Assembly: GCF_000317535.1 (NCBI RefSeq)
Contig: NC_019757.1
Location: 5,049,501 to 5,113,500 of the forward strand
Source of the DNA: Cylindrospermum stagnale PCC 7417
GTDB taxonomy: Bacteria > Cyanobacteriota > Cyanobacteriia > Cyanobacteriales > Nostocaceae
Length of the DNA stretch: 64,000 nt
Reading direction: 5' to 3'
Positions 4,482 to 14,109 of this stretch are shown here, one piece after another. The notes below the pieces were generated by a model. The model ran no database searches. It worked only from the letters and a program-made list of their open reading frames with translations, and had not been told where the DNA came from. The first letter of the stretch is position 1. Every line of letters starts with the position of its first letter. A program made the translations under genes and the position numbers.

Positions 4482-4975
4482 TTCCTGATTCTATTAGTCC
4501 TTGTCTTGTGGACTTTGCGGAAAGTGCCGCGACTTCTAGTCGTTAGGGCTAAAAGTTTATTCTTTATAAAGAGTAAAATCTAACACTCTAGAATAGATAT
4601 TAAATCAAAATTATCAGGTACAGTATGATATCTTGGCGCAGATTTACTGGCAATGCTTGCTTGAGTTTTGTCGCCCTATCACTCAGCAGTTGTCACCACC
4701 CCAAAACAGCGCGAGAGATGATTAAACAAGCCAGAGAAAGCGCAGTTTTAATCAACTATACCGACAAACTAGGACAAGGTACAGAACTGATTGCCAAACT
4801 CCAAGGTAAAACACCCCGAAGACAACAGCAGTCTACAACAGGTGTAAATTCCCCAGCCGGTGATGCAGTTGGGAGATTCAAATGGGGTATGCCGATAAAT
4901 GTTGATTTGGCAAATGCTCTCCCTACTCCCACAGAGTCAGAAGCTGCCCAAAAGGCGGAGAAATTTTTGAACGAG
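4482..4975 (+). repeat. Tandem duplication, copy 1 (promoter region plus N-terminal coding)
   Basis: About 490 bp whose counterpart lies 1,293 bp downstream. It covers roughly 140 bp of upstream sequence and the first 110 or so codons of the TPR lipoprotein. The last 85 bp before the ATG are nearly identical between copies, so regulatory signals were duplicated with the gene. Confidence 0.85.
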
Positions 4976-5746
4976 GGTAATGATTACTCTGATAAGCAAG
5001 ACTATCAGCAAGCGATCGCATCCTATGAAAAAGCCCTCGCCATCAAACCTGACTATGCTGATGCTTGGTACGGTAGAGGCTATGCTCTAGATGAGTTAAA
5101 ACGCTACTCCGAAGCGATCGCATCCTATGAAAAAGCCCTCGCCATCAAACCTGACTATGCTGATGCTTGGATTAACCGAGGTAATGCCCTTGGTAAGTTA
5201 AAACGCTACTCCGAAGCGATCGCATCCTATGAAAAAGCCCTCGCCATTGAACCTGACTACTATCAAGCTTGGTATAACCGAGGTTTTGCCCTTGATGAGT
5301 TAAAACGCTACTCCGAAGCGATCGCATCCTATGACAAAGCCCTCGCCATTGAACCTGACTACCATCAAGCTTGGAATAACCGAGGTATTGCCCTTGTTGC
5401 GTTAAAACGCTACTCCGAAGCGATCGCATCCTATGACAAAGCCCTCGCCATTGAACCTGACTTGCATCCAGCTTGGAATAACCGAGGTAATGCCCTTGGT
5501 GAGTTAAAACGCTACTCCGAAGCGATCGCATCCTATGACAAAGCCCTCGCCATTGAACCTGACTTAGACGAAGCATATTATAACAAAGCTTGTTCCTATG
5601 CTTTGCAAGGCAATGCAGATCAAGCGATTGAGAACCTAAACAAAGCCATTCAATTAGTTCCTAATAAATACCAGAAATTAGCGAAAACTGACCCAGATTT
5701 TGCTAAAATTCGTAGTGATAAAAGGTTTCAGCAATTACTGCAATAG
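4625..5746 (+). CDS. TPR-repeat lipoprotein (tandem paralogue A)
   Basis: 373 residues. The lipoprotein signal MISWRRFTGNACLSFVALSLSSC ends in an LSSC lipobox with Cys at 23. A linker of about 90 residues contains MPINVDLANALPT. From about residue 115, seven TPR units follow, several almost identical at protein and DNA level (YADAWxxRGxALxxLKRYSE, then AIASYEKALAIKPD). Every unit re-uses the codons GCG ATC GCA for Ala-Ile-Ala, so each carries a HIP1-type octamer or near-octamer in register. It ends with the same KLAKTDPDF...KRFQQLL tail as its left neighbour. It is likely an exported scaffold protein. The very uniform repeats suggest recent expansion by unequal recombination and make the repeat number likely to vary between strains. 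Confidence 0.82.
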   Translation: MISWRRFTGNACLSFVALSLSSCHHPKTAREMIKQARESAVLINYTDKLGQGTELIAKLQGKTPRRQQQSTTGVNSPAGDAVGRFKWGMPINVDLANALPTPTESEAAQKAEKFLNEGNDYSDKQDYQQAIASYEKALAIKPDYADAWYGRGYALDELKRYSEAIASYEKALAIKPDYADAWINRGNALGKLKRYSEAIASYEKALAIEPDYYQAWYNRGFALDELKRYSEAIASYDKALAIEPDYHQAWNNRGIALVALKRYSEAIASYDKALAIEPDLHPAWNNRGNALGELKRYSEAIASYDKALAIEPDLDEAYYNKACSYALQGNADQAIENLNKAIQLVPNKYQKLAKTDPDFAKIRSDKRFQQLLQ

Positions 5747-5774: not shown

Positions 5775-6268
5775 TTCCTGATTTTATTAGTCCTTGTCTT
5801 GCGGATTTTGCGGAAAATGCCGTGATTTCTAATCGTTAGGGCTAAAAGTTTATTCTCTATAAAGAGTAAAATCTAACACTCTAGAATAGATATTAAATCA
5901 AAATTATCAGGTACAGTATGATATCTTGGCGCAGATTTACTGGCAATGCTTGCTTGAGTTTTGTCGCCCTATCACTCAGCAGTTGTCACCACCCCAAAAC
6001 AGCGCGAGAGATTATTAAACAAGCCAGAGAAAGCGCAGTTTTAATCAACTATGCCGACAAACTAGGACAAGGTACAGAACTGATTGCCAAACTCCAAGGT
6101 AAAACACCCCGAATACAACAGCAGTCTACAACAGGTGCAAATTCCCCAGCCGATGATGCAGTAGGGATATTCAACTGGGGTATGCCGATAAACGTTGATT
6201 TGGCAAATGCTCTCCCTACTCTCACAGAGTCAGAAGCTGCCCAAAAGGCGGAGGAATTTTTCAATCAG
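5775..6268 (+). repeat. Tandem duplication, copy 2
   Basis: Second copy of the upstream region and N-terminal coding module of the TPR lipoprotein at offset 1,293 bp, with scattered substitutions in the distal upstream part. The copies stop matching closely at the first TPR unit. Confidence 0.85.
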
Positions 6269-7408
6269 GGTAATGATTACATTGTTCAGCAAAACTATCA
6301 GCAAGCGATCGCATCCTATGAAAAAGCGATCGCCATCAAATCTGATTATGCTGATGCTTGGAATAACCGAGGTTCTGCCCTTGGTAACTTACAACGCTAC
6401 AAAGATGCGCTAGCATCCTTTGATAAAGCGCTCGCCATCAAACCTGACGATGCTGATGCTTGGAATAACCGAGGTTCTGCCCTTGGTAACTTACAACGCT
6501 ACAAAGATGCGCTAGCATCCTTTGATAAAGCGCTCGCCATCAAACCTGACTATGCTGAAGCTTGGAATAACCGAGGTTCTGCCCTTGCTAACTTACAACG
6601 CTACTCAGATGCGATCGCATCCTTTGATAAAGCAATTAGTATTAACCCTGATGATCAAATAGCAATCAATAATCGCGAAACTTTATTGAAACTACTAGGG
6701 CGTATGCCAATAAATGTTTATGCAGGGTCAGAAACAGTCCAAAAAGCGGAGGACTTTTTCAATCAGGGTAATGATTACGCTGTTCAGGGAAACTATCAGC
6801 AAGCGATCGCATCATATGAAAAAGTGATCGCCATCAAACCTGACTACTATCAAGCTTGGTATAACCGAGGTAATGCCCTACGTCAGTTACAACGTTACTC
6901 CGAAGCGATCGCATCCTATGAAAAAGCGATCGCCATCAAACCTGACTTGCATCAAGCTTGGAATAACCGAGGTTTTGCCCTTAGTGAGTTAAAACGCTAC
7001 TCAGATGCGATCGCATCCTATGAAAAAGCCCTCGCCATCAAACCTGACTACCATGAAGCTTGGAATAACCGAGGTAATGCCCTTGTTGAGTTAAAACGCT
7101 ACTCAGATGCGATCGCATCCTGGGAAAAAGGGCTCGCCATCAAACCTGACGACCATGAAGCTTGGTATAACCGAGGTCTTGCCCTTAGTGAGTTAAAACG
7201 CTATTCAGAAGCGATCGCATCATATGAAAAAGCGCTCGCCATCAAACCTGACTTGTATCAAGCTTGGAATAACCGAGGTATTGCCCTATTTAACTTAAAA
7301 CGCTATGAAGAAGCACTCAAATCTTTTGATAAAGCAATTAGTATTAACCCTGATGATCAATTAGCAATCAATAATCGCCAAGCTGTATTGAAACAACTAG
7401 GGCGTTAA
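5918..7408 (+). CDS. TPR-repeat lipoprotein (tandem paralogue B, internally duplicated)
   Basis: 496 residues. The signal and linker are almost the same as in the previous gene (lipobox LSSC, Cys23). The body has two TPR blocks. Block 1 (about 100-262) ends with SINPDDQIAINNRETLLKLL, and block 2 (about 266-496) begins again with MPINVYAGSETVQKAEDFFN and closes with SINPDDQLAINNRQAVLKQL. The repeated opening (MPINV...QKAE.FFNQGNDY) and closing motifs show that the gene is an internal duplication or a fusion of two ancestral TPR modules. It has about ten TPR units in total. The C-terminal tail differs from paralogue A, which has KRFQQL. No enzyme domain is present; it is an exported protein-interaction scaffold by inference. 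Confidence 0.82.
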   Translation: MISWRRFTGNACLSFVALSLSSCHHPKTAREIIKQARESAVLINYADKLGQGTELIAKLQGKTPRIQQQSTTGANSPADDAVGIFNWGMPINVDLANALPTLTESEAAQKAEEFFNQGNDYIVQQNYQQAIASYEKAIAIKSDYADAWNNRGSALGNLQRYKDALASFDKALAIKPDDADAWNNRGSALGNLQRYKDALASFDKALAIKPDYAEAWNNRGSALANLQRYSDAIASFDKAISINPDDQIAINNRETLLKLLGRMPINVYAGSETVQKAEDFFNQGNDYAVQGNYQQAIASYEKVIAIKPDYYQAWYNRGNALRQLQRYSEAIASYEKAIAIKPDLHQAWNNRGFALSELKRYSDAIASYEKALAIKPDYHEAWNNRGNALVELKRYSDAIASWEKGLAIKPDDHEAWYNRGLALSELKRYSEAIASYEKALAIKPDLYQAWNNRGIALFNLKRYEEALKSFDKAISINPDDQLAINNRQAVLKQLGR

Positions 7409-7575: not shown

Positions 7576-8448
7576 ATGAAAAAACTCTTAATCACCGGAG
7601 CTAGTGGTTTTTTAGGATGGCATCTTTGCCAATTAGCTAAGGAAGAATGGGAAGTTTATGGAACATATTTTTCCCATTATCTAGAAATTCCTGGCGTCAA
7701 AATGCTGAAAGTTAACTTAACAGACTTTCAGGAATTGAAAAGCATATTTAGTCAAATTCAACCAGCAGCAGTTATTCATACAGCCGCCCAATCACAACCG
7801 AATTACTGTCAACTTCATCCCCAAGAATCGTATATAATTAACGTCACCGCATCTTGCAACATTGCCGGACTTTGTGCCGATTATGGGATTCCTTGCGCTT
7901 TCACCTCAACCGACTTAGTTTTTGATGGTTTAAATGCACCTTATCGCGAAACAGATATCGTTTGTCCTGTCAACATTTACGGTGAGCAAAAAGTCCAAGC
8001 TGAACAAGGTATGTTAGCAAAATATCCCCTAACCGCAGTTTGCCGAATGCCGTTAATGTTTGGCAGAGAAACACCAACAGCCAAAAGCTTTATCCAGTCA
8101 TTTATCCAAATATTAAAAGAGGGAAAAGAGCTAAGTTTATTTATAGATGAATTTCGCACACCAGTAAGTGCTACAACTGCGGTGAAAGGACTTTTATTAG
8201 CATTAGAAAAAGTCAACGGTTGCATTCATTTAGGTGGAAAAGAAAGAATTTCCCGTTATGATTTTGGGCAGTTATTAGCCGAAGCATTTCAACTCCCCAT
8301 AGAGAAACTTAAATCTTGCAGACAAGAAGATGTAAAAATGGCAGCACCCAGACCAACTGATGTTTCTTTAGATAGTTCTCAAGCTTTTGCATTAGGTTAT
8401 CAACCCCTATCTATAAAGGCAGAATTACAGGCGTTGCTGAATATATAG
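7576..8448 (+). CDS. SDR-family NAD-dependent reductase (RmlD-like dTDP-sugar reductase family)
   Basis: 290 residues. The N-terminal Rossmann motif KKLLITGASGFLGWHL (TGxxGxxG) and the catalytic triad elements of extended/atypical SDRs are visible: Thr in AFTSTDLVFDG, then Tyr and Lys in NIYGEQKVQAE (YxxxK). The pattern VIHTAAQSQPNYCQ and the mid-region FGRETPTAKSF are typical of the RmlD/substrate-binding family (dTDP-4-dehydrorhamnose reductase and relatives). The substrate is probably a nucleotide-linked 4-keto sugar, or a related short-chain substrate. No rml neighbours are present, so a role in rhamnose synthesis is not established. It follows a hairpin repeat and is probably a single-gene unit. 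Confidence 0.8.
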   Translation: MKKLLITGASGFLGWHLCQLAKEEWEVYGTYFSHYLEIPGVKMLKVNLTDFQELKSIFSQIQPAAVIHTAAQSQPNYCQLHPQESYIINVTASCNIAGLCADYGIPCAFTSTDLVFDGLNAPYRETDIVCPVNIYGEQKVQAEQGMLAKYPLTAVCRMPLMFGRETPTAKSFIQSFIQILKEGKELSLFIDEFRTPVSATTAVKGLLLALEKVNGCIHLGGKERISRYDFGQLLAEAFQLPIEKLKSCRQEDVKMAAPRPTDVSLDSSQAFALGYQPLSIKAELQALLNI

Positions 8449-8453
8449 ATTTG

Positions 8454-8629
8454 ATGCATCAGGGGAGGCATTGTAGGGTGCGTTCCCTAACGCACGCATT
8501 TAAGATTTTCAATGCATCATGGGAGCATTGTAGGGTGCGTTCCCTAACGCACGCATTTAAGATTTTCAATGCATCATGGGAGCATTGTAGGGTGCGTTCC
8601 CTAACGCACAAATTAAGATTTTTAATGAA
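8454..8629. repeat. Three tandem 57-58 bp repeats with palindromic core
   Basis: Three units beginning ATGCATCA at 8454, 8512 and 8569. Each contains the palindromic core GGTGCGTTCCCTAACGCAC (GTGCGTT/AACGCAC arms). The same core occurs twice near 19.87 and 20.02 kb and as a variant at about 20.2 kb, so it is a dispersed family in this genome. The third unit decays at its end. Downstream, 8640-8720 holds another short repeat (TCCCAGTCGGAGACTAGGAA). No protein-coding character. Confidence 0.8.
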
Positions 8630-8728
8630 TAAAATCAGCGTACATATTTAGGGCTATCACCTTCCGTATAAGCGGCAGAGCCGCAATGATTGCATTCCCA
8701 GTCGGAGACTAGGAACGAGATATAACTA

Positions 8729-9493
8729 TCAAAATTCAATATCCAAAAATTGAGAAATAAAATTGCTGTATTCATCCTTCATTGGTAATTCCAAATCTCG
8801 TCGAATGCGTCGCCGTAATGCAGACACATTTTCACCTGTCACAGGGTTAAATCCTAACTTTTCATACTCCTCCCAATAAAGTCCTACACCTCGTTTTTGC
8901 CAATTGGGAAGATCATTAAAATTAATTCCATGCTGAAATAACAACTCATTTTTATCAGCAACAGATAACCCTTTCATCATACTGGTTGCTTCACCTATAG
9001 TTTTACCATCTCGACGTAAACACCAGTAGCTGTGAGCATTCAAAGAATTTCTGTGTGCATCTTCATTTCGCCAGCGGAAATAATTTACCACTTCTGTTTT
9101 ATTAGGTAGTTGAGAAATGCGACAGTCAAAGCAACCAATATCACCTAACAGCAAAGAAAATTTGGCACTGGCTTCACCTGCTAAAACAGAATTAAGCTTT
9201 CTTAATTTTCGACCAAAAGAGTTTTCGTCTTGAGCAAAAAGTAGAGAAATTTCATCACTTTGAGTATAACCATAAATGATATTTAACCCACAATTCATCA
9301 AATGTTCAACCGTTGCCAGCATCATATCTCGAAAACGAATATCATAGGGAGAATCAAATTTATGTACTTCTTTTGTTAAGCGGGTAAAGCTACGTCCATC
9401 CAATCTAGCAACTATATAAATTCCAGGTAGCACACAATAATCGTGGGCTGTTTCAAATACCCGCATTCTGCTATCAAGTTCATCAAATTTCAC
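8729..9493 (-). CDS. Thg1-like 3'-5' nucleotidyltransferase (tRNA-His guanylyltransferase family)
   Basis: 254 residues from a GTG start at 9493. The start was chosen because a GAGGAA ribosome site (9506-9501) lies 7 nt upstream and the protein then opens VKFDELDSRMRVFE as in the family; the frame could be extended to a TTG at 9514, but without support. Family signatures are clear: YIVARLDGRSFTRLTKE (metal Asp at 32), YGYTQSDEISLLF (Asp80/Glu81) and RNEDAHRNSLNAHSYW. Thg1 enzymes add nucleotides to RNA 5' ends in the 3'-5' direction; bacterial Thg1-like proteins repair 5'-truncated tRNAs using the tRNA 3' strand as template. Bacterial tRNA-His normally encodes G-1, so repair is more likely than G-1 addition. 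The gene overlaps the upstream polynucleotide kinase by 11 bp, implying translational coupling and a shared substrate. Confidence 0.9.
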   Translation of the reverse strand: MKFDELDSRMRVFETAHDYCVLPGIYIVARLDGRSFTRLTKEVHKFDSPYDIRFRDMMLATVEHLMNCGLNIIYGYTQSDEISLLFAQDENSFGRKLRKLNSVLAGEASAKFSLLLGDIGCFDCRISQLPNKTEVVNYFRWRNEDAHRNSLNAHSYWCLRRDGKTIGEATSMMKGLSVADKNELLFQHGINFNDLPNWQKRGVGLYWEEYEKLGFNPVTGENVSALRRRIRRDLELPMKDEYSNFISQFLDIEF

Positions 9494-9932
9494 GCAGCCA
9501 TTCCTCAACAACAAAGGGTTTATTTAAATAATTTTTAACAGAGTAAATTGCATCAAAGCCTTCTTCCCAAGTTGGCGGAGTCATTTTTTTATAAGTTGCT
9601 AAAATTCCCGGTAGAGGAATAACTTGTTTAGGAGGTCTTTTTTGGTTTCGTTTTTTGCAATCTTCTAATTTTACATCAAAATAATAACCGATAACTCGAA
9701 AGTTATTAGCTTTAGCTAGAGGGATATAACGTTGTCTATCTTCTACAGTTGGGTTAGTATTATCAATAACAAAACGCTGTTTAGCTTCTAAACAAGCGTG
9801 AAAAATAATTTTTTCTCGATTACGGGTTTTAAGCATATCCAGATTAATGCGGATATGGGTATTAAAAAAGCAACTTTTAAAAAAAGTAGATTTACCCGCT
9901 CCTTGTATGCCGATAAAAATGATTGCTTCCAT
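9483..9932 (-). CDS. PNKP-like P-loop polynucleotide kinase
   Basis: 149 residues. The Walker A motif is GIQGAGKSTF near the N-terminus. Then come INLDMLKTRNREK, the strand-loop FVIDNTNPTVEDRQRYI, the arginine-rich lid DCKKRNQKRPPKQVIPLPG and the C-terminal PPTWEEGFDAIYSV. The order DNTNP...R..Y..A, IP, EGF..I is the one I know from the kinase domain of PNKP/T4 Pnk-type enzymes, which phosphorylate 5'-OH ends of nucleic acids. No phosphatase or ligase domain is present. The start is taken at the ATG giving MEAIIFIG; an ATG at 9941 is also possible and neither has a strong ribosome site. It lies 24 bp after the DUF928 gene and overlaps the Thg1-like gene, suggesting a kinase-polymerase RNA 5'-end repair pair. 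Substrate specificity is inferred. Confidence 0.8.
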   Translation of the reverse strand: MEAIIFIGIQGAGKSTFFKSCFFNTHIRINLDMLKTRNREKIIFHACLEAKQRFVIDNTNPTVEDRQRYIPLAKANNFRVIGYYFDVKLEDCKKRNQKRPPKQVIPLPGILATYKKMTPPTWEEGFDAIYSVKNYLNKPFVVEEWLREI

Positions 9933-9956
9933 GATAAACATCAATTTTCTTTCATA

Positions 9957-10733
9957 TCACTTTTCTAGAGTGCAACAAGAAATTATAGGTACTTGAGCTA
10001 TATCTTCTAAACCCTCTGCCTGCCAAAATTCTAACCATTCTTTGGCAAATTTTTTGTCATAATGAAGACGATGCCGTTCTCCGAGAAGTGATAGTACTGC
10101 TTCGTCCCAAAGACCAAAATTACGATAAGCAGGGTACATTCCAATTGGAGGTGCATTGATGAAAGAACCATAGAACAATCTTTTGAGTTCGATTCGTTTG
10201 ATAAATCCACCTACACTTGGGTTTGAACTCCAATCAAAATCATCACAAATAACTGTAAATCTCCACCGATACAGTTTATTAAGTTCAAGTAGAGATTCGG
10301 GTTCGTTGGGTGTAAGATTTTTAGTTCGTGGTAATTCTAATTTAACAATTCCTGGGTTGCCTGTGAGCTTAAATCTAGTTTGATAAACTTCTTTTTCCTG
10401 GTCATCTGTGAGGGATAATTCTGCTAAATGTTCTATATCAGACTGGGGGTAATTTGCTGGGATGTACACAAAAAAAGTCGCCCTAAGCTCATCTGTAAGT
10501 GCTATTTCTTGCTTTGGTACTAATGCTGTCATTTTCCCTTCTCGAATACATCTCATACCTGCTGTAACTGCGGGGCGTCTGAGTCGAATAATTTGCTGTT
10601 GTAAGGCTTTATCGGCGATAGCAGCAGGGCGTGTAAAGCTAGGAGAATTGAGTGTAGATTCTGCCAATGCTGGCAATGCTAATGATAATATATTGCTAAA
10701 ATAAAAGACTGTGAAAGCGAAGGAACGCCACAT
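9957..10733 (-). CDS. DUF928-family exported protein
   Basis: 258 residues starting MWRSFAFTVFYFSNILSLAL with a signal peptide cleaved near ALPALAES. The ATG at 10733 has a CAGGAG site 9 nt upstream; a TTG at 10757 is in frame but unsupported. The body has the DUF928 pattern: a GMRCIREGK turn, a predicted beta-rich middle (FFVYIPANYPQ, KLTGNPGIVKLELP), then YRWRFTVICDD and GFIKRIEL. DUF928 proteins are common in cyanobacteria, usually exported, with no known biochemical role. It precedes the kinase and Thg1-like genes by only 24 bp on the same strand, so it may share their transcript; a functional link is not evident. Confidence 0.8.
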   Translation of the reverse strand: MWRSFAFTVFYFSNILSLALPALAESTLNSPSFTRPAAIADKALQQQIIRLRRPAVTAGMRCIREGKMTALVPKQEIALTDELRATFFVYIPANYPQSDIEHLAELSLTDDQEKEVYQTRFKLTGNPGIVKLELPRTKNLTPNEPESLLELNKLYRWRFTVICDDFDWSSNPSVGGFIKRIELKRLFYGSFINAPPIGMYPAYRNFGLWDEAVLSLLGERHRLHYDKKFAKEWLEFWQAEGLEDIAQVPIISCCTLEK

Positions 10734-10794
10734 AAATTTAAACTCCTGTAGGGACAATTGATGAATTGTCCTTAATTATGTTTTAATCAATTGA

Positions 10795-11110
10795 AAACAT
10801 CTGCTAAGAGTTAAGAGATTTAAGAGGATGTTTGAAAAGTATCAAAATTGATCGAGATCCCCCCAACCCCCCTTTCCAAGGGGGGCAATAAACTCTTAAA
10901 GTCCCCCGGAAGGGGAGCCAGCGCGGGGAAAGGGGGTCTCCACGCCACATGCTTCTCCCAAGGGGAGACGCTGCGCGAACAAGTCGGCGGAGCCGCCCAA
11001 CGCAGTGGCTCCCCATGAGCGACTGGCGTGGATTTAGGGGGATCTACGAGTGTTATATTTATCACAAACTACTTTTCAAACATCTGCTAAGAGTTAAGAG
11101 AGTTAAGAGG
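10795..11110. repeat. MITE-like dispersed element with flanking direct repeats
   Basis: A 258-bp core (10827-11084) is bounded by inverted 15-mers GATGTTTGAAAAGTA and TACTTTTCAAACATC. It is flanked by 26-bp direct repeats starting TGCTAAGAGTTAAGAG (10802-10827 and 11085-11110, one mismatch). Inside are a C-run/G-run hairpin and a GC-rich segment (about 10910-11010). The left part recurs inverted at about 7505-7555. The rest of the 10758-11208 gap has no gene; reading frames inside the repeat have no protein character. Confidence 0.6.
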
Positions 11111-11208
11111 GCGGGGAGACCCCCTACAGAAAACTGTACCTTACTGATCTGAAAAACGTTTGTAGAGAGGTTCCGTGGAACGTCTCTACATTTTTTTCAC
11201 TCCTATGT

Positions 11209-14109
11209 CTACTGTGAATAAGCTGCCATTGGCAGACAAGAACAAACAAAATTTCTGTCACCAAAAGCGGCATCAATTCTGCCTACATTCGGCCAGAATT
11301 TAGATTCTCTTGTCCAAGATGCGGGATAGGCAGCTTGTTCACGAGAATAGGGATGAAGCCATTCTCCAGCGATGAGACTTTCGGCGGTGTGGGGTGCATT
11401 CTTCAAGAGATTATCTTGAATATCTGCTTTACCTGATTCAATTGCGGCGATTTCTTGGCGAATGGCAATTAAGGCATCGCAGAAACGATCTAATTCTTGT
11501 TTTGATTCGCTTTCTGTGGGTTCCACCATGATTGTACCGCCGACAGGCCAAGAGACAGTGGGGGCATGGAAACCGTAGTCTATGAGACGCTTGGCGACAT
11601 CATCAATTTCGATGCTGGCAGATTTTTTGAGGTCGCGCAAATCTAAAATACATTCATGGGCGACTAGACCATTTTTCCCTTGATATAAAACGGGATAATA
11701 AGACTCTAGTCTCTTGGCGATGTAGTTGGCGTTGAGAATTGCCACCTTAGTTGCATCCGTCAAACCATCTGCACCCATCATGGCGATGTACATCCAAGAA
11801 ATTACCAAGATGCTAGCACTACCCCAAGGCGCAGCAGCAACCGCCCCTATGCCTTGTGTACCAGTTATCTTGACAACAGGGTGTCCAGGAAGGAAGGGTA
11901 CAAGATGGGAAGCAACACCAATGGGCCCCATACCAGGGCCACCACCACCGTGGGGAATACAGAAGGTTTTGTGCAAGTTCAAATGACAGACATCTGCACC
12001 GATATCGCCAGGGCGACAAATTCCTACTTGGGCATTCATATTTGCCCCATCCATGTAAACTTGTCCGCCGTGGCTATGAACTACAGCACAGATTTCTTGA
12101 ATTGCTTCTTCAAAGACGCCGTGAGTTGAAGGATATGTCACCATCAAAGCAGCAAGTTCATGGCTGTGTTTTTCTGCTTTTGCCTTCAAGTCATTTAAAT
12201 CAACGTTACCTTGGGAGTCACAGGTAACTGCAACTACTTTCATGCCGCACATGACTGCACTGGCTGGGTTTGTTCCATGTGCCGACTGGGGAATTAAACA
12301 AACGTTGCGGTGTGCTTCTCCACGGCTGGCGTGATATTGATGAATTACCAAAAGTCCTGTGTATTCACCTTGAGAACCTGCATTTGGTTGCAGAGATATG
12401 CCGGAAAATCCGGTAATTTCTGCTAACCATGCCTCAAGTTGCTGGAAGAGGATTTGATAACCCCGTGTTTGGGATAAAGGTGCAAAGGGGTGAATTTTGC
12501 CAAATTCTGCCCAAGTTACGGGAATCATCTCAGATGTGGCGTTTAACTTCATGGTGCAAGATCCCAAGGGAATCATTGATGTAGTTAACGACAAATCTTT
12601 AGTTTCTAACTTGTGCAGATAACGCAATAACTCTGTTTCTGAGTGATAGCGGTTGAAGACGGGGTGAGTTAGGTAATTGCTTTGGCGGGAGGTTATTTGG
12701 TTGGGGGAAGCTAACTCTTCTATGGTGAAAGGTAGTTTATCAACACCGGCGAAAATTTGCCAAAGGTCAATTAAGTCTTCTGGGGTTGTGGTTTCATCCA
12801 GGGAAATGCCGATTGCGGTTGTATCAAAAATCCGCAGATTAATGTTTCGCGCGGTGGCAGATTGGAGAATTTCTTCTAGGTTGTGTGTTCCCAACTCTAC
12901 CCGCAGGGTATCAAAGTAAGATTCAGAACTGATGCTGTAACCTAGTTGTTTGAGTCCTGCTGCTAAAGTTGCAGTTAATTTGTGGATATTTTGCGCGATC
13001 GCATTTAATCCATCTGGCCCATGATAAACAGCATACATACTCGCCATCACTGCCAGCAACACTTGCGCCGTACAAATATTACTGGTGGCTTTATCTCGGC
13101 GGATGTGCTGTTCGCGGGTTTGCAAGGCGAGACGTAATGCAGGCTTACCGTTGACATCTTTAGAGACACCAACAATCCGCCCTGGAACTAGCCGTTTATA
13201 CTCTTCCTTGGTGGCAAAGTAGGCGGCGTGAGGTCCCCCAAAGCCCAAGGGAATCCCAAAGCGCTGTGTGCTGCCTACGGCAATATCAGCCCCAAATTCG
13301 CCGGGGGGTGTGAGTAGAGTTAAGCTTAAAGGATCTGCGGCTACAGTCACCAATGCACCCTGAGCATGAGACTTGTCGATAAAAGCGCGGTAGTCGTGAA
13401 TTGTGCCATCAGTGGCGGGATATTGGAGAATTGCCCCAAAAATCGGTTGTTCAAATTCAAATGTCTGATGATCACCGATAATGATCTTGATTCCTAAAGG
13501 TTTAGCCCGTGTTTGCAATACATCGATGGTTTGGGGATGGCATTCACGGGAGACAAAAAAGGCGATCGCTTTATTTTTGCACACACCATAGCTGAGACTC
13601 ATGGCTTCTGCCGCTGCTGTGGCTTCATCGAGTAAGGAAGCATTGGCAATTTCCAAACCCGTCAAATCAATAATCATCGTTTGGAAATTCAGCAGCGCTT
13701 CTAGTCGCCCTTGGGCAATTTCTGGCTGATAAGGAGTGTAAGCCGTATACCAGCCGGGGTTTTCGAGAATATTCCGCTGTATTACAGCCGGGGTGATACA
13801 GTCGTAATATCCCGTACCAATAAATGAGCGGCAAACCTGATTTTTGGCAGCTATTTGCTTTAACTTAGCCAGTGCAGCATACTCGCTTTGTGCCGATGGT
13901 AATTGTAACGATTGAGTTAGCCTGATTGCCTGGGGCACTGTTTGGTCAATCAGGGCATCAAGGCTAGAAAAACCCAATACATCAAGCATTTGCTGAATGT
14001 CATCGGAGTTTGGGCCGATGTGTCTTTGGGCAAAATTAGTTAAATTTTGACTTTTTTCGCCCGTCAATTGGCGATCGCTAGACTGAGTACGAGGGGCGTA
14101 ACCTACCAC
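11209..14109 (-). CDS. gcvP: Glycine dehydrogenase (decarboxylating), P-protein
   Basis: 966 residues, the usual size of the homodimeric P-protein. It decarboxylates glycine with PLP and passes the aminomethyl group to the lipoyl arm of GcvH; in cyanobacteria it also serves photorespiratory glycine turnover. It opens [18 protein letters not shown], holds the mid-region [16 protein letters not shown], and has the PLP-lysine segment [19 protein letters not shown] (Lys at about 714), all diagnostic. The start is a GTG at 14109 with GGAGAG 7 nt upstream. It is the last gene of the leftward gcvT-gcvH-gcvP set, 124 bp after gcvH. No intact glycine riboswitch was recognised in the upstream gaps. Confidence 0.97.

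Follow-up and report, generated by a model that had tools for sequence, protein, structure and literature searches.

Which task could a stand-alone polynucleotide kinase share with a Thg1-like protein when the genes of the two overlap? The question is raised by a locus of the cyanobacterium Cylindrospermum stagnale PCC 7417, which lies in a stretch of 64,000 nucleotides (contig NC_019757.1, positions 5,049,501 to 5,113,500), referred to here as the window. In this window, a gene for a predicted PNKP-type 5'-kinase is followed by a gene for a Thg1-like 3'-5' RNA polymerase. Comparison of their sequences with those of relatives suggests that the pair forms a two-enzyme RNA 5'-end repair module, to which we assign a probability of roughly 0.7. 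A metal-independent RNase or hydrolysis would leave a 5'-OH on an RNA, and the kinase would phosphorylate it; the Thg1-like enzyme, translated from the overlapping gene, would activate the 5'-phosphate made by the kinase and would then restore the missing nucleotides in the 3'-to-5' direction, with the opposite strand of the acceptor stem as template. The repaired substrate is likely to be a tRNA. A preliminary description of the window had already proposed that the kinase acts before Thg1, and as a prediction this order stands, in view of intact active sites, adjacency across phyla and correlated divergence of the two proteins; it is not new, however, since the main text of a paper from 2010 contains the kinase-Thg1 proposal (PMC2904730).

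In the Pfam comparison, the window kinase reached 51 bits with AAA_33, above the cut-off of 27 bits. The two best NCBIfam profiles, TIGR01663 and TIGR04075, are both of the PNK type and scored far under their full-length cut-offs, as expected of a lone kinase domain; the third-best was seryl-tRNA(Sec) kinase. Mammalian PNKP is the closest sequence in the Protein Data Bank (PDB; E 1.9e-12), and the predicted fold, which came nearest to the kinases of mammalian PNKP and clostridial Pnkp, is that of a PNKP kinase. The P-loop (GxxGxGKS/T) is present as GIQGAGKST at residues 8-16, and the other active-site residues are intact, comprising D32, the DNTNP block (D57-N58-T59-N60-P61) and the lid residues R95 and R99. 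We take D32 to be the catalytic Asp after the second strand, and the DNTNP block and lid arginines to play the parts that they have in PNKP-type kinases. P-loop, DNTNP block, arginine lid and EGF block had been pointed out in the preliminary description, and each was found as described. Both sequence and modelled fold thus predict a PNKP-type 5' polynucleotide kinase.

The second protein exceeded the Pfam cut-offs for Thg1 (112.3 bits) as well as Thg1C (55.5 bits), and its closest PDB sequence is the Thg1-like protein 5axk (E 7.9e-34); NCBIfam gave no match at E 0.01. It carries the two Thg1 signatures reported before and the metal-binding acidic residues D32, D80 and E81, and across 106 kinase-linked Thg1 sequences these three ligands are kept in 105, 106 and 106, respectively. 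In domains and metal ligands it resembles BtTLP, MaTLP and MxTLP, for which templated 3'-5' addition has been reported (PMC6471195, PMC3701042). Unlike the window protein, these three have been linked to no kinase partner in the available text of the two papers, in which the word "kinase" does not occur (PMC6471195) or occurs once, for a labelling reagent (PMC3701042). Apart from this, a Thg1 relative of genome G174 (locus L028, 7831-8616) shows ARLKVKNL in place of ARLDGRSF, so that its first metal-ligand Asp is replaced by lysine; no kinase adjoins this gene.

Both window genes lie on the minus strand and overlap by 11 bp, with a GAGGAA site for the second inside the first (Table 1), just as originally noted, and this arrangement may couple their translation. 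It is widely conserved. Among 386 cyanobacterial genomes, 14 carry a total of 15 genes matching PF04446 (Thg1), and the kinase gene lies directly upstream at 12 of these 15 loci. A scan of contigs with one genome per species confirmed 551 relatives; at the best 80 of the 551, the kinase was present at 69 loci (Corallococcus relatives included), in four cases as a short open reading frame (ORF), and tblastn found none at the remaining 11. The conserved adjacency for which the preliminary description had proposed a search is therefore real. In Bacteroidota, the kinase lies upstream of 29 of the 31 complete Thg1 ORFs scoring at least 200 bits versus none of the seven scoring lower (locus L270, without a complete Thg1 ORF, is outside these 38), and on viral contigs it was found upstream of Thg1 at 2 of 38 loci and downstream at one more. 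Of the 102 pairs available, 80 could be scored for the overlap, and in 67 of these its length is exactly 11 bp; 21 pairs without a canonical Thg1 start by pattern went unscored, and the window pair was not counted. When a slightly altered set was recounted, the 11-bp overlap appeared in seven named phyla. Chance adjacency of the two genes was considered and is ruled out by the 12 cyanobacterial loci together with the fixed overlap.

The distances among kinases follow those among Thg1 proteins (Mantel r 0.75; none of 999 permutations reached this value), a correlation of which shared descent alone gives part. Between the window and its relative in G338, dN/dS is 0.21 for the kinase and 0.12 for Thg1. 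Thg1 relatives also occur in phages, namely in 125 of the 50,697 records searched; large phages of Bacillus and of Gram-negative hosts belong to these 125, and identity to the window Thg1 stays under 60% throughout. At three loci the pair is possibly decaying: Thg1 of L303 contains a TAG and is spread over two frames, L310 has the kinase as two ORFs in the his operon, and L320 has a short, low-scoring Thg1.

In the cyanobacterial relatives G024, G091 and G340, the pair is part of a larger operon with the gene order hen1-PNK-thg1-pnkp, Pnkp being a kinase-phosphatase-ligase. Hen1 and Pnkp of G024, which is probably the same genome as that of locus L036, score 741.6 and 1455.9 bits, and hen1 of G340 is in two frames; a hen1 split over two frames was seen in two otherwise intact-looking operons (L021, 6243-7636, and G284:C1:296332-297709). 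In G338 the pair is whole and is flanked upstream by two short hen1 pieces and downstream by two pnkp pieces. In the genome of C. stagnale, both Hen1 and full Pnkp stayed below the curated cut-offs, so that no Pnkp-Hen1 system was found by this measure, and a search for hen1 or pnkp fossils within the window gave none. On a quickly built tree of 120 Thg1 proteins, from which viral loci, proteins scoring under 300 bits and the duplicates L018 and L096 were excluded, the window falls within a cyanobacterial group of 25 rows with a support of 98, supports inside the group being weak. Hen1 or Pnkp is present at the locus in 12 of the 25 rows, and the row nearest to the window by path, L034, has both, which makes a loss of the outer genes the simpler reading. 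By this comparison, the window pair would probably be what remains of a hen1-PNK-thg1-pnkp operon after losing its two outer genes.

The association with this repair system extends further. Among the best 80 of the 551 relatives, Hen1 is found at 13 loci and Pnkp at 12. Full Pnkp occurs in 15 of the 386 cyanobacteria, namely in 7 of the 14 genomes with Thg1 versus 8 of the 372 others (Fisher p 8e-8, uncorrected for kinship), and in four of the seven having both it is encoded elsewhere in the genome, away from Thg1. Cyanobacteria, planctomycetes and Bacteroidota all have loci at which Pnkp-Hen1 repair genes accompany the pair or Thg1: Hen1 and Pnkp stand alongside the pair at the planctomycete loci L049, L051 and L052, L247 unites all four genes in one locus, and at L245 and L254 Thg1 precedes Hen1-Pnkp with no separate kinase, as if Pnkp's own kinase served. 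RlaP-type nucleotidyltransferases, which are predicted to restore lost nucleotides ahead of ligation (PMC7824862), were verified at four loci (L049 with two, L051, L074 and L245). As nucleotide restorers they are comparable to Thg1 and occur in some of its clusters, but they belong to the Pol-beta family, have a fold unrelated to Thg1 and were not seen at the window locus. A further repair cluster is found in Pseudobacteroides (L048, 7127-10164), where two RNA_ligase genes and an HD-AAA_33 protein follow downstream of PNK-thg1. The preliminary description had argued that the absence of a ligase would set the pair apart from repair of the Pnkp/Hen1 or RtcB type. The locus indeed holds no ligase, but as stated the argument is not supported: in the closest relatives a hen1-pnkp operon encloses the pair, and the genome of C. 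stagnale has two RtcB ligase genes elsewhere.

A different operon context was met in Bacteroidota, for which overlapping Thg1 samples were taken from the phylum, from the order and family of G387, and from the family and genus of G386. G387 holds locus L096 of Hymenobacter crusticola, and its family should therefore be the Hymenobacteraceae (Cytophagales); G386 holds L083 of Tenacibaculum (Flavobacteriaceae). Thg1 was present in 5 of 395 genomes sampled from the phylum, in 33 of 213 and 27 of 180 from the order and family of G387, and in 3 of 249 and 3 of 78 from the family and genus of G386. Sixteen of the 27 Thg1 genomes in the family of G387 have the pair inside the histidine operon, in the order hisG-hisD-hisC-[PNK-thg1]-hisB-hisH-hisA-hisF-hisIE on one strand. 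At all three loci of the genus of G386, one of them a 4-kb contig ending in hisC, hisD precedes and hisC follows the pair; the same holds for L088 (Tenacibaculum sp. M341), which was counted outside these three. A further locus, L101, contains Thg1, a 100-aa ORF, hisF and hisIE. In the wider samples, his linkage was seen in 4 of 33 (order of G387; all among the 16), 1 of 5 (phylum) and 1 of 3 (family of G386). NCBIfam confirmed seven his genes of L083 and hisIE of L096; at the other loci the his genes were assigned by similarity.

All 20 hisG genes are preceded by a short ORF in which a stretch of eight codons holds four His or more, for instance MTFIQLHHHHHHICTQAN, versus 1 of 427 controls; the criterion was fixed after six of the twenty leaders had been inspected, and the controls were mechanical ORFs of at least 150 aa from the same loci, spurious ones included. 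Such a His-rich leader is the classic mark of attenuation by charged tRNA-His. Both leaders that were examined are followed by a terminator-like hairpin with a T run (-17.7 and -18.6 kcal/mol; z -7.5 and -5.9), and an Rfam scan of seven his-operon loci had no matches at the gathering threshold. We expect that his operons lacking the pair would have the same leaders. In the family of G387, hutI (imidazolonepropionase) was found within about 8 kb of the pair at all 11 loci without his genes (L298, L301-L305, L307, L311, L313, L315 and L320; NCBIfam check for two), compared with 0 of 49 other Bacteroidota loci searched, and these 11 may share one ancestral location. The pair in a his operon behind a His-rich leader, together with hutI near others, suggests tRNA-His as the substrate and induction by uncharged tRNA-His. 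The insertion site differs between lineages, lying between hisD and hisC in one and between hisC and hisB in the other. Independent origins of the his linkage were nevertheless not upheld, as trees with a single his-linked clade were not rejected by the approximately unbiased (AU) test, which gave p 0.139 (120 rows, seven constrained rows) and, for a reduced tree of 68 hand-picked rows with seven long rows removed and L101 left out, p 0.884 (six rows); in the latter the constrained tree scored even better than the free one.

In the genomes compared, G-1 and C73 are encoded in nine tRNA-His genes of eight genomes, seven being read by script and those of L182 and L184 by eye from the T8/A9 position, where the script took an equal-pairing register; a tenth gene (L179), truncated on its 5' side, was excluded. 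Both tRNA-His genes found in the genome of C. stagnale encode G-1 opposite C73, one of them read by eye. A role of the eukaryote type, in which Thg1 is required because G-1 is not encoded, is rejected by the nine genes for the genomes examined; with G-1 encoded, Thg1 would restore it and not first make it. As further observations, the acceptor stems of tRNA-His pair at 5 or 6 of 7 positions in four Bacteroidota genomes (L178, L180, L181 and L182), with U-U mismatches by eye, and the genome of C. stagnale contains a dense tRNA array, with 17 tRNAs in the 3 kb of L191 alone (G000:C2:3383116-3385559), among which is the genome's second tRNA-His, whose body is unusual.

The module could accordingly be narrower in scope than general RNA repair and be specialised for tRNA-His. 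A metal-independent RNase cutting between -1 and +1 would leave a 5'-OH at +1, for which reason the kinase would be needed before Thg1; it would re-phosphorylate +1, and opposite C73 Thg1 would replace one nucleotide, the identity element G-1. Blocked histidylation, as after the loss of G-1, would in some Bacteroidota then raise the level of uncharged tRNA-His, which would relieve attenuation at the leader, and the repair enzymes would be made. The placement of the pair inside his operons (16 of 27, 3 of 3 and L088), the leaders with their terminator-like hairpins, hutI at the 11 other loci and the encoded G-1 and C73 all speak for this, as may, by analogy, the Myxococcus xanthus TLP, described in part of PMC6471195 as adding a single G, given that Corallococcus relatives have the pair. 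On the other side, his linkage concerns few lineages of the wider samples and was noticed after the fact, and a single origin of it fits the trees; no cyanobacterial or viral locus is his-linked, hisF being the sole his gene found in the window, about 24 kb from the pair; a search with the E. coli sequence (E 1e-15), run without a positive control, placed hisS near none of 196 loci; and the M. xanthus TLP may lie outside the kinase-linked clade. We regard specialisation for tRNA-His as a serious possibility at somewhat less than even odds; it is the preferred reading in Bacteroidota with his linkage, and for the window it is a possibility. The fuller proposal of a dedicated G-1 repair that is switched on in some Bacteroidota through his-operon attenuation by its own unchargeable substrate is put forward a shade more tentatively.

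Three other explanations depart further from templated repair. A horizontally moving counter-toxin or anti-phage cassette with largely accidental neighbours would suit the patchy occurrence in cyanobacteria (14 of 386) and Bacteroidota (5 of 395), the DNA similarity to relatives of the window, which spans little beyond the two genes, and the Thg1 relatives in phage records; yet PADLOC matched Thg1 to nothing and the kinase only weakly to AriA (E 0.0038), the repeated occurrence in repair and his settings looks non-random, and Thg1 on viral contigs mostly comes without this kinase, all of which leaves such a cassette doubtful. PMC2904730 offers, in its main text, a ligase-type role as an alternative, in which Thg1 would only activate the kinase-made 5'-phosphate (App-RNA) and the 3'-OH of another RNA would attack, joining the two RNAs. 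The shared loci with Hen1-Pnkp and RNA ligases agree with this, but all three polymerase metal ligands are kept, ligases are absent from the window locus and from the his-operon neighbours, and nucleotide addition suits the his-operon context better; we consider it improbable. Least of all do we expect a kinase that acts on a small molecule or on DNA and adjoins Thg1 for regulation, with no shared substrate. Its fold is common to non-RNA kinases, and the closest of its relatives, mammalian PNKP, is a DNA-repair enzyme; its best matches by sequence and by predicted structure are, however, polynucleotide kinases, and its divergence is correlated with that of Thg1. RNA 5'-end repair by kinase and Thg1 together is thus the reading that we prefer.

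The features of the window locus are listed in Table 1. The DUF928 gene may be co-transcribed with the pair; it is not a conserved neighbour, a relative being present at only one (L025) of 14 other cyanobacterial loci, about 7 kb from the pair. A scan for sigma-70 promoters and terminators (window 8400-11210) gave five promoter-like sites versus 7.6 expected and three terminator-like sites versus 2.2. Directly downstream of the pair, a 57-bp tandem repeat is present in 3.1 copies (8454-8627), with similar pieces at about 19867, 20017 and 26522. Two tandem TPR genes (4625-5746 and 5918-7408) with near-identical N-termini and 102-bp internal repeats look recently duplicated.

Table 1. Features of the kinase-Thg1 locus in the window.
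Feature	Position	Strand	Remarks
PNKP-type polynucleotide 5'-kinase (predicted), stand-alone	9483..9932	-	149 aa; ATG at 9932, stop ends 9483
Thg1-like 3'-5' RNA polymerase (predicted)	8729..9493	-	254 aa; GTG start at 9493, stop ends 8729
Reading-frame overlap kinase/Thg1	9483..9493	-	11 bp
Shine-Dalgarno-like GAGGAA	9501..9506	-	inside kinase gene, 7 nt ahead of Thg1 GTG
DUF928 gene	9957..10757	-	PF06051 E 1.2e-35; 24 bp upstream of kinase, same strand

The preliminary description had suspected that the pair is listed in comparative surveys, and it was indeed predicted for bacteria in 2010. In the main text of Anantharaman, Iyer and Aravind (PMC2904730), a polynucleotide kinase is given as the most persistent bacterial association of Thg1, some neighbourhoods include an RNA ligase or a MACRO protein, and the kinase may provide the 5'-phosphate. 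The published neighbourhood has the same two families and reaction order as the window pair; that main text differs in containing neither "Hen1" nor "histidine" nor "his operon", and the fixed overlap and the fossils were likewise not seen in it. Our literature search, conducted mostly without subscription journals, found nothing on bacterial Thg1-like proteins, operon and kinase by those terms, and nothing linking Thg1 or tRNAHis guanylyltransferase to histidine biosynthesis or the his operon. The Hen1-Pnkp or RlaP links have probably been described before, in the RNA-repair survey of Burroughs and Aravind from 2016. The fixed overlap, the hen1/pnkp operon with its fossils and the his-operon linkage were not found in the literature searched.

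According to a review from 2019, those bacterial and archaeal Thg1-like proteins that have been investigated favour the repair of 5'-truncated tRNAs, and their biological substrates have not been entirely addressed (PMC6471195). For the in vivo role of the bacterial enzymes, the overlap, the fossils and above all the location in his operons provide concrete hosts and one predicted substrate, and this role therefore becomes testable.
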